Shown here in pieces: positions 3,150-7,266 of a stretch of DNA of 28,213 nt. A program made the position numbers and the translations under genes. Source of the DNA: Deltaproteobacteria bacterium (GTDB lineage: Bacteria > Myxococcota > UBA796 > SXON01); NCBI GenBank assembly GCA_947483545.1, contig CANKNP010000018.1:1-28213 (forward strand), written 5' to 3'. How positions within the stretch are numbered: position 1 is the first letter of the stretch; each line of letters starts with the position of its first letter. A model generated the notes under the pieces. It was not told the DNA's origin. It saw only the letters and a program-made list of their open reading frames with translations, and did no database searches.

Positions 3150-3356
3150 ATGGGCTTCCGTCCGATGAAGGTGCTCGCCCTCGCATGGTTGCTCGTCGCA
3201 GCCGGGCTCTTGGTGTTGGTCGGACCCTCGCTCGGCTGGCGAGGCTGGATCTGGCTTGGCGCCCACACGCTCTTGTGTCTCGTCGGCGCGGGCTGGGAGC
3301 TCGGGGGCGACCGGATCGAGCGCGCCATCGACCGTCGGCTGGCGGGGGGCACATGA
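3150..3356 (+). CDS. Small two-helix membrane protein, first gene of pseudokinase unit
   Basis: A 68-aa protein with two hydrophobic segments separated by a short turn: LALAWLLVAAGLLVLVG (about residues 9-25) and WIWLGAHTLLCLVGAGW (about 32-48). A charged C-terminus follows (GDRIERAIDRRLAGG). It probably spans the inner membrane as a hairpin with both ends in the cytoplasm. The ATG at 3150 has GGAG close upstream (3143-3146); a second ATG at 3165 is possible. Its stop overlaps the pseudokinase start in ATGA (3353-3356), so the two are probably made together. I do not recognise the family. A role as a membrane partner of the pseudokinase is inference from coupling. Confidence 0.72.
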   Translation: MGFRPMKVLALAWLLVAAGLLVLVGPSLGWRGWIWLGAHTLLCLVGAGWELGGDRIERAIDRRLAGGT

Positions 3357-4963: not shown

Positions 4964-7266
4964 TCCTTCCGTTGCTCGTCGCGGACCGCGGCGAGCCTCG
5001 CGGGATCGGCGGCAAGGCGGGGGCGCTGGCGGAGCTGGCGCGCACGGGGCTCCCGGTCCCCCCCGCCTGGGTCGTACCTCGGAGCGCCTTCGCCGCCTTC
5101 TTGTTGGAGAACCAGCTCGTGGCAGGCACGCCGAACCTGGCCGAGCGGGTCCGCACCGGACGATTTCCGTTTCCGCTGGCCAGCCCAGCGCCCTTCGTGG
5201 CGGTGCGCTCGAGCGGCCACGACGAGGACCGTGCGGAGGGGGCGAACGCTGGACGCTACGCGACGGTGCTCGGCGTTACGCCCGTACAGTTCTCGGATGC
5301 TGTACGAGAGGTCTGGGCGAGTTGGGTCGCGGCTCGGCGGGAGGGGGAGCCCCTCGACGGCATGACGGTGTTGGTCCAGGAGATGGTGGACGCGCGGGTC
5401 GCCGGGGTGTTGTTCACCACGAACCCGGTGAGCGGGAGCTGGGCGGAGATGGTGGTGGAGGCCGTCTGGGGGCTCGGCGAGCCGCTCGTGAGCGGGAAGA
5501 TGGTGCCCGATCGATACATGTTGAGCCGTCTCCGCGCGGTCGGCACGCGCGCGGCGCCCGTTGTTGTGCAGGAGGACGTGCGAACCCAGGAGAGCGAGCT
5601 CGTGCTGGACCAGCACCGCCTCGTCACTCGCCAGACGGCCGCGCCCCACGCACGCAAGCTCGCACGCGAGGACCTTGTCGCGCTCGGGGAGCTGGGCTTG
5701 CGCGTCGAGCGGCTGCGCGGGACCCCGCAGGACATCGAATGGGTGCAGGACCGCGCCGGAAAGGTCCACCTTCTCCAGGCCCGCCCGATCACCACGCAGC
5801 GGCGTCTTCCGCGCGGCGATGCGACGCTTTGGACGCGCCGATTCATCGGCGAGCGCTTTCCCGGCGGGGTCACGCCGTTGACCTGGTCGATCGTCGGTCC
5901 GACCCTTGAGCACTTCATCGCCTACCCTGAGACGTCCAGGCGCTACCTTGGCGGGGAGCCTCCGCTCCGGGTCGTGAACGGTCACCCGTACATCAACGTC
6001 ACGGTCTTCCGGCACCTTGCCTTCAAGGCCCCCGGCGCCGCACCTCCAAGGTTCATGCTGGACTTCTTCCCTCCCGAAGAGGAGGCCGCTTGGACCCGGA
6101 GACATGCCGCCCTGCCCGATTTCGCGGTCTACGCGAGCATTTTTCAAGTCACCTTCGCCGAGCGGAGGTGGCGGCGCTTTCGCTGGAACCCGGCGACCAA
6201 TGTGCGCAGTTGGGACCAGTTCCGACAGGCCCTGCCGCCCCGGCTGGCCCGCGTGTCTGCGGAAGGCGTCTCCGAGGCCCTCGCCCAGGGCGCCGAGCTG
6301 CTCCGGGACTACGTGAAGATCCACGTCACCTCGCTCTTGTTCGCCAATATGGGGTTTGAGCTCCTCGCGCCGTGGCTCACCCTGGACCAGCGGCGGGTGG
6401 TCTTGCGGCCTTGGGGAGGGTCCCTCACACGCCGGGTCGATCAGGAGCTTCGGGAGGTTGGACGCGGCGAGCGCACGCTGGACGCTTTCCTTCTCGCGCA
6501 CGGTCACCGCTCCCGGGCGAGCTGGGAGATCTGGGCACCTCGGCTCGCGGAGGATCCCGAGGGCACCCTGCGCACCGCGCGGGATCTGGCGAACACCCGG
6601 GCGATGGATCCCGACGCCGACGCACGCGAGACCGCCGCGGTCGTCGCCACCCTCTCTCCCAGGCTCCAGCGCTTTGCGCACCTGGCCAGCGAATACCTCC
6701 GGCTCCGCGAGGAGCAACGCTACTTCCTGGACTTGATCTTCTGGACCCTCAAGTCCCGCCTGCGTGCCCACGCGCCCGCCCTCGGCCTGGACCCGGACGA
6801 CCTCCCCTGGCTCACCGCCGCCGAGCTCTGCGACCTCCCGCCCGACGCCACCCGCTTGGCCCGACAACGCCGCGCGATCCCGGCAGATCCCCACCCCGCG
6901 GACTTTCTCCGCGGTGACGCGCCCCTGCCACCTCCCGCGGGTGGGGACCGCCTTCAGGGCTTGGGCGTCTCCCCCGGCACCGTCCGCGGCACGGCGCGGA
7001 TCTTCGACACCGTCGAGGCCGCGCAAGCCCTCCGCACCGGCGAGATCGTGGTCACGCGGTCTACGGACCCTGCCTGGACGCCGCTGTTCAGCCGGGCTGG
7101 AGGGCTCGTGTTGGAGCTTGGGAGCCAGCTCTCCCACGGTGCGGTTGTCGCGCGGGAGCTGGGGCTGCCTGCGGTCGCGAACATCATCGGCGCGACGCAG
7201 GTGATCCGCGATGGAGCGGAGCTGCTGGTGGATGGGCGGGCGGGGACGGTTTGGGTGCTCCGCTAG
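4960..7266 (+). CDS. ATP-dependent dikinase of the PEP-synthase/rifampin-phosphotransferase superfamily
   Basis: The 768-aa product combines an N-terminal PPDK-type ATP-grasp domain (about residues 1-277), a helical middle domain (about 285-660) and a C-terminal swivelling phosphohistidine domain (about 667-768). The first shows IGGKAGALAEL, VAVRSS, VQEMVDARVAGVLFTTNP, VSGK..PDRY and LQARPIT. The last shows LGVSPGTVRGTARI and GSQLSHGAVVARELGLPA, with phospho-acceptor His726. ATP would donate its beta-phosphate through His to a substrate held by the middle domain. PEP synthase has His centrally and a C-terminal TIM barrel. Here His is last and no barrel exists, which is the layout of rifampin phosphotransferase. 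The substrate is unknown, and the middle domain is not clearly a rifampin site. The start overlaps the pseudokinase stop in ATGA (4960-4963). The TAG stop lies at the edge of a dispersed repeat. Confidence 0.85.
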   Translation: MILPLLVADRGEPRGIGGKAGALAELARTGLPVPPAWVVPRSAFAAFLLENQLVAGTPNLAERVRTGRFPFPLASPAPFVAVRSSGHDEDRAEGANAGRYATVLGVTPVQFSDAVREVWASWVAARREGEPLDGMTVLVQEMVDARVAGVLFTTNPVSGSWAEMVVEAVWGLGEPLVSGKMVPDRYMLSRLRAVGTRAAPVVVQEDVRTQESELVLDQHRLVTRQTAAPHARKLAREDLVALGELGLRVERLRGTPQDIEWVQDRAGKVHLLQARPITTQRRLPRGDATLWTRRFIGERFPGGVTPLTWSIVGPTLEHFIAYPETSRRYLGGEPPLRVVNGHPYINVTVFRHLAFKAPGAAPPRFMLDFFPPEEEAAWTRRHAALPDFAVYASIFQVTFAERRWRRFRWNPATNVRSWDQFRQALPPRLARVSAEGVSEALAQGAELLRDYVKIHVTSLLFANMGFELLAPWLTLDQRRVVLRPWGGSLTRRVDQELREVGRGERTLDAFLLAHGHRSRASWEIWAPRLAEDPEGTLRTARDLANTRAMDPDADARETAAVVATLSPRLQRFAHLASEYLRLREEQRYFLDLIFWTLKSRLRAHAPALGLDPDDLPWLTAAELCDLPPDATRLARQRRAIPADPHPADFLRGDAPLPPPAGGDRLQGLGVSPGTVRGTARIFDTVEAAQALRTGEIVVTRSTDPAWTPLFSRAGGLVLELGSQLSHGAVVARELGLPAVANIIGATQVIRDGAELLVDGRAGTVWVLR

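Follow-up and report, generated by a model that had tools for sequence, protein, structure and literature searches.

Rifampin phosphotransferase (RPH) and its relatives are the closest described counterparts of the enzyme analyzed here. According to PMC4844700, members of the validated RPH clade A share more than 42% identity with RPH-Lm, their catalytic residues are an Arg-Glu pair and the Lys of block 9, and distant clades of the superfamily are expected to act on other substrates. Among other dikinases, PEP synthase has a regulatory Thr two residues before its catalytic His, and the phenolic dikinases HpeHI, CreHI, and PpsAB are built from two chains and belong to aromatic catabolism, as described in PMC12167813. 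Pseudokinases are treated in PMC12599244, whose excerpts present MviN and EssB/YukC as membrane-anchored scaffolds or recruiters with a Hanks-type fold lacking catalytic residues, name no dikinase with them, and characterize GLW pseudokinases by the substitution of GLW for HRD and of poly-Leu for the β3 Lys. An earlier note on the DNA studied here knew of no system pairing a dikinase of this kind with a pseudokinase; likewise, among the matches listed from the open-access literature, we found neither a pseudokinase paired with a dikinase, PEP synthase, or RPH nor a description of a regulated dikinase with a dead-kinase subunit.

We analyzed a 28,213-nucleotide stretch of DNA (the window), in which three plus-strand genes, for a small membrane protein (gene 1), a pseudokinase (gene 2), and a dikinase (gene 3), are linked by two 4-base ATGA overlaps (Table 1). 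The gene ends, the lengths, and both overlaps are as first described. At another locus, L109, the kinase/dikinase junction is TGATG, a 1-base overlap, or GTGA if the preceding GTG is the start. The region 5′ of gene 1 begins with an XPB-like helicase truncated by the window start, which is followed by a 73-aa gene, a peptide deformylase, and then a pseudouridine synthase of the RluA type, divergent from gene 1; on the 3′ side of gene 3 lies a DapC-like aminotransferase on the opposite strand (TIGR03537, 437.4 bits, slightly below the cut-off of 453.6).

Table 1. Coordinates in the window of the three genes, their overlaps, and the domains and sites of their predicted products
Feature	Position	Strand	Basis or detail
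Small membrane protein (gene 1), 68 aa	3150..3356	+	Translation; homologues; first in overlapping set
Overlap, gene 1 stop / gene 2 start	3353..3356	+	ATGA
Predicted membrane-anchored pseudokinase (gene 2), 536 aa	3353..4963	+	Pfam, alignment, AF2 model
Pseudokinase domain, residues 19-285	3407..4207	+	R54 at β3, HQS 143-145, EFG 166-168
Transmembrane span, about residues 370-396	4460..4540	+	Hydropathy; model helix 370-434
C-terminal helical part, residues 397-536	4541..4960	+	Model
Overlap, pseudokinase stop / dikinase start	4960..4963	+	ATGA; also in L001, L002, L003, L017, L062
RPH-type dikinase (gene 3), 768 aa, single chain	4960..7266	+	Pfam, fold, residues
ATP-grasp domain, residues 1-283	4960..5808	+	K19, R83, T102 = RPH-Lm Lys22, Arg117, Thr136
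Substrate domain, residues 284-655	5809..6924	+	Alignment, fold
Arg583-Glu584 codons	6706..6711	+	= RPH-Lm Arg666-Glu667
Swivel phosphohistidine domain, residues 656-768	6925..7263	+	Pfam, fold
Phosphohistidine His726 codon, in LSHGA	7135..7137	+	112/112 rows

Gene 3 encodes, on a single chain, an RPH-type dikinase in the sense of the broad superfamily. It matches PPDK_N (5.3e-48) and PEP-utilisers (6e-21) in Pfam, and its structural model (pLDDT 93.1) has the RPH fold, matching the RPH-Lm structures (PDB 5hv1, 5fbs) from the first residue to the last. The order of ATP-grasp domain, substrate domain, and C-terminal His is that of RPH and not of PEP synthase, as had been proposed, and the phosphohistidine site is intact; His726, like Arg583 and Glu584, is invariant in all 112 aligned rows, and the catalytic Lys and Arg are conserved as well. 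RPH-Lm nevertheless differs from gene 3 in several respects: the two are only 17-23% identical, Arg587 occupies the position of RPH Lys670 (112 of 112 rows), and the gene for the dikinase here overlaps one for a pseudokinase. Leu724 is equally constant at the position of the PEP synthase regulatory Thr, and 62 of the 372 columns of the substrate domain are at least 99% identical across the 112 rows. By analogy with RPH and HpeHI, the product would carry out ATP-dependent dikinase chemistry, in which ATP would phosphorylate His726 on the swiveling C-terminal domain, yielding AMP and phosphate, and a small molecule in the middle domain, beside Arg583-Glu584, would receive the phosphate on one of its hydroxyls.

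The score of gene 3 lies far below the cut-off of every named family. The best NCBIfam match was RedH (282.6 bits against a cut-off of 1350), followed by a PEP synthase subtype (256.9 against 883), PigC (244 against 1300), PEP_synth (TIGR01418, 211.2 against 739.75), and RIF_Ptrans_rph (NF041857, 195.6 against 999). We rejected rifampin phosphotransferase proper on its score and on an identity to RPH-Lm well short of that of the validated clade, and PEP synthase on its score, on a His that is C-terminal and not mid-chain, and on Leu724. The prodigiosin-type ligases RedH and PigC were set aside in a comparison of scores alone, and a two-component phenolic dikinase because the ATP-grasp domain is not on a separate chain; gene 3, moreover, lies in a conserved chromosomal stretch. 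Because the top model is RedH and not RPH, ligation instead of plain phosphorylation is possible. An aldehyde dehydrogenase neighboring the dikinase at other loci was also considered as a clue to the substrate; the one at L010, scanned against NCBIfam, is a P5C dehydrogenase (TIGR01236, 745.1 bits against 613.6), and no link to the dikinase was seen.

Gene 2 matches the protein-kinase domain of Pfam (PF00069, 1.7e-28). We aligned it with 119 other proteins (the best 120 of 1277 matches) and three kinases from dikinase loci, and separated the 9 rows of its own family from the remaining 114. Within the family, the β3 Lys is replaced by R (8 rows) or Q (1) and the HRD Asp by A (7) or S (2), and the catalytic-loop Lys and Asn are missing throughout; loss at the DFG Asp is not uniform (D in 5, E in 3, and N in 1). 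In contrast, Lys, HRD-Asp, and DFG-Asp were present in 113 of the 114 control kinases, taken from the matches listed and the locus kinases. The APE Glu, DxxLG Asp, and αI Arg are retained in 9/9 family rows, and the domain in the window retains the structural residues H143, E190, D203, and R264. The family rows represent perhaps eight proteins instead of nine, as the end of L109 is identical to P0124. Judged by its sequence, gene 2 thus appears to encode a pseudokinase that kept the fold and lost catalysis, which agrees with the earlier description of a membrane-spanning kinase-fold protein without catalytic residues.

Among these proteins, P0128 (553 aa) is 28% identical to the pseudokinase over 96% of its length, and hence past the membrane span, but its β3 Lys, HRD-Asp, and DFG-Asp are intact. 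The likeness to MviN and EssB/YukC lies in the membrane-anchored kinase fold without catalytic residues. It does not extend to the GLW motif: family members have HQS, HEA, HES, or HWA at the HRD position and Arg or Gln at β3, and the letters GLW in the window's pseudokinase belong to EFGLW, at the DFG motif. Hydropathy gave one clear hydrophobic span, at residues 370-404, and the part C-terminal to it probably lies outside the membrane. The AF2 model, built from eight sequences, is of only fair quality (mean pLDDT 78.1 and pTM 0.52, with 59-73 for the four remaining models), and when the whole model was compared with structures, the matches listed were kinases and were uninformative on the C-terminal part. 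For this part no Pfam family was found in searches of three tails at E up to 10, LemA included. A LemA identity for the helical tail is not claimed: the hhalign scores of 21.0 (10 sequences, p 0.03) and 19.1 (30 sequences, p 0.048) were near those of decoys (reversed tail, 18.9; reversed LemA, 17.0; 30 block shuffles, at most 17.3, to be set against 19.1).

We then determined how widely the genes occur together. Scanning genome contigs for the dikinase yielded 42 loci, or 43 when the window is counted. In the 71 genomes of the class to which G001 belongs (dikinase cut E 1e-100, with up to 14 candidates scored per genome; pseudokinase profile cut E 1e-75, with the best 21 kinase candidates scored), the dikinase was matched in 51, once in each and in some cases partially. 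The pseudokinase was found in four (G001, G002, G003, and G111) as well as in the window, always beside the dikinase, so that 48 of the 51 dikinase genomes, including G004 with its remnant (see below), had no intact pseudokinase. The match covered nearly all 505 profile positions in G001, G003, and G111, and positions 2-288 with a second piece at 315-503 in G002. G111 has the order RluA, gene 1, gene 2, gene 3, but its dikinase, cut by a contig end, amounts to about 100 residues (60% identity), and for this reason G111 is not among the 51. In a profile search of 22 genomes at E 1e-60, with up to 69 candidates scored per genome, other kinases matched the pseudokinase profile only to position 385 and not to its C-terminal end. 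Two proteins on contigs both 5,405 long, P0126 and P0007, suggest a further pseudokinase-dikinase pair. Since the genomes are mostly MAGs (all titled ones except L013), absences are weak.

A midpoint-rooted tree was built from the dikinases of 32 loci and the window (33 of 43 in all), leaving out L021, L025, L031, L032, L034, L035, L036, L039, L040, and L041, most of which start late or are cut. The dikinases of the four pseudokinase-linked loci and L017 formed one clade (support 100/100), with L009 in the next row (100/98). Outside this clade, tblastn of the fetched DNA found no family pseudokinase beside a dikinase. Kinases of other kinds were matched in the fetched DNA of four non-clade loci (L016, L026, L028, and L041), including same-strand kinase-domain genes about 50 bases after the dikinase in L016 (12504-15611) and about 650 bases before the dikinase frame in L026 (4107-8135). 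With 29-269 kinase candidates per genome, such proximity could be chance, and enrichment of kinases near the dikinase was not counted as linkage. Adjacency, which the earlier note had proposed to check for the three families, holds for the pair in the window, G001, G002, G003, and G111. Co-occurrence held in one direction: the pseudokinase was seen only with the dikinase, but the dikinase and gene 1 are more widely spread. Together, the pair looks like a clade-specific add-on in uncultured Myxococcota-like bacteria.

Gene 1 is a neighbor of the pair with a history of its own. It had been described as a two-helix membrane protein; one strong hydrophobic span (residues 3-30) was confirmed, but the second putative helix stays under the Kyte-Doolittle cut of 1.6 (19-residue window) and is weak by that measure. 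No Pfam domain was found in it. In this family (window 3150-3356 and L043-L062), the LGWRGWIW core does not vary across the six copies that were aligned. Gene 1 profile matches occurred in 19 of 22 genomes chosen from dikinase loci, and RluA was divergent beside 13 of 20 fetched copies; of the remainder, six had no RluA in a short flank and one (L046) lay at a contig end. The family pseudokinase adjoins gene 1 only in G001, G002, and G003 among these 22 genomes, with the remnant in G004, and G111 and the window add two adjacencies beyond them. Gene 1 mostly occurs without a family pseudokinase alongside, and its presence does not mark a phosphotransfer unit. Of the proposed three-gene unit, the adjacency of pseudokinase and dikinase stands, within one clade, but the three genes differ in history. 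At L009, gene 1 and RluA lie near the dikinase, the intervening 1.4 kb reads by codon-position GC as a plus-strand gene, and tblastn found no family pseudokinase near the dikinase; gene 1 and the dikinase may therefore have been adjacent before the pseudokinase arrived.

In G004, the pseudokinase is cut to a 70-codon in-frame remnant between gene 1 and the dikinase. The place is covered by two contig ends with small differences (L017 1-400 and L062 1-560), which in the remnant amount to four synonymous and four non-synonymous codons. The remnant frame has a GTG start, retains sequence around the activation segment (YSAPE, LLYEM) as well as the C-terminal tail, and shares GTGA with the gene 1 stop and ATGA with the dikinase start. 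In the set of loci frames, the family profile still matches the L017 frame around it (5.3e-8). Misassembly at the end of a contig could be involved; the two variants agree, however. As the L017 dikinase frame is full-length (776 aa) and falls in the pseudokinase-linked clade, the remnant argues against an obligate subunit. We also compared divergence in the six pairs among the window, L001, L002, and L003. Pairwise identity was 73.1-77.5% for the deformylase, 75.0-79.8% for RluA, 67.2-79.4% for gene 1, and 66.0-70.5% for the dikinase, but only 40.5-53.4% for the pseudokinase, the fastest diverging of the set. In the dikinase, the ten nearest sequences (P0003-P0012), for only part of which the presence of a pseudokinase is known, differ from 102 others in that two loops of the ATP part, of 5 and 7 columns, are lost and in nine distinct substitutions, seven of them in the substrate part, which we treat as leads only.

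On the reading we favor, to which we give an even chance, a non-catalytic, membrane-tethered accessory localizes or tunes an RPH-type small-molecule dikinase without being obligate. The dikinase would be an enzyme that this bacterial class has maintained by vertical descent and that acts on one conserved substrate, and gene 2 a clade-specific accessory, derived from a receptor-type Ser/Thr kinase that lost catalysis and kept its fold and one membrane helix. The overlap of genes 2 and 3 implies that both proteins are probably made together, presumably by translational coupling, and the pseudokinase most likely binds the dikinase, with a complex that holds it at the membrane or tunes it being about evenly balanced against the contrary; in one relative gene 2 was nearly lost. 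Fast divergence and the remnant both fit weak constraint, so the pseudokinase could instead be a passenger. On that account, which is somewhat unlikely, a receptor kinase gene undergoing decay came to lie, in a single ancestor, between gene 1 and the dikinase, its loss is still under way, and the overlaps reflect no more than compact gene order. The eight codon differences between the remnant variants and the failure to find a family kinase beside other dikinases speak for it as well, but the frame is open in five of the six clade genomes (all but G004) at 40-53% identity, structural and not catalytic residues are those retained in all nine rows, and the overlap persists even in the remnant.

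A stronger role for gene 2 is envisaged in two further forms. It is rather unlikely that the dead receptor kinase serves as an allosteric or anchoring subunit that lets a signal from outside or from the envelope control the phosphorylation of a core metabolite with no protein phosphorylation involved. Quite doubtful is the original idea that gene 2 encodes a true sensor, which would detect an outside signal and gate the dikinase across the membrane. That a single chain carries a kinase fold, a membrane span, and a C-terminal helical region suits a sensor, as do the retention of the pairing within the clade and the ATP-grasp loop losses; however, the dikinase occurs without an intact pseudokinase in nearly all class genomes that carry it, the C-terminal part matches no Pfam family, and the loop losses are one event, in rows with incompletely known pseudokinase content. 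As for the dikinase itself, the five NCBIfam matches might point to an ordinary PEP synthase, rifampin-inactivating enzyme, or prodigiosin-type ligase, but given the subthreshold scores, the position of the His, and the distance from RPH-Lm, this is very improbable. Moreover, a separate PPDK is present in all ten genomes chosen from the loci (nine above cut-off), and PEP synthase above cut-off in three of the ten, all in the pseudokinase clade; these genomes need not use the gene 3 enzyme for PEP, which makes a PEP synthase role unlikely. The earlier interpretation as a whole is thus partly supported.

The favored non-obligate accessory would join two thinly studied groups, namely the transmembrane pseudokinases of bacteria and the superfamily of RPH-type dikinases, and a dead kinase acting as a dikinase subunit, if true, would represent a regulated type of dikinase. 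The clade offers a ready comparison of the intact pair, the near-deletion in G004, and sister dikinases, where the search turned up no pseudokinase of this kind. The greater interest may lie in the dikinase by itself: its breadth in the class and its invariant-rich substrate domain hint at an unrecognized core phosphorylation step.

Several observations concern the surroundings and labels of these loci. The XPB-like helicase (window 1-933) is present in the fetched DNA of 23 of the 43 dikinase loci, including the window, several loci being short. At L004 its neighbors are another helicase-like gene and, by Pfam, genes for the small subunit of exonuclease VII and for TonB, ExbB, and ExbD, and relatives of this exonuclease VII/TonB/ExbB/ExbD stretch occur in about 9-16 other loci (BLAST). 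Elsewhere in the window, 17089-19839 encodes the 2-oxoglutarate dehydrogenase E1 component, above the NCBIfam cut-off, and 25190-26407 a PRK05325/YhbH-type protein, above the cut-off of an NCBIfam "hypothetical protein" model. Finally, L004, L009, L036, and L042 are labeled Klebsiella pneumoniae, but in the tree, which did not include L036, the dikinases of L004, L009, and L042 group with those of Myxococcota- and Deltaproteobacteria-labeled MAGs; the four labels look wrong.
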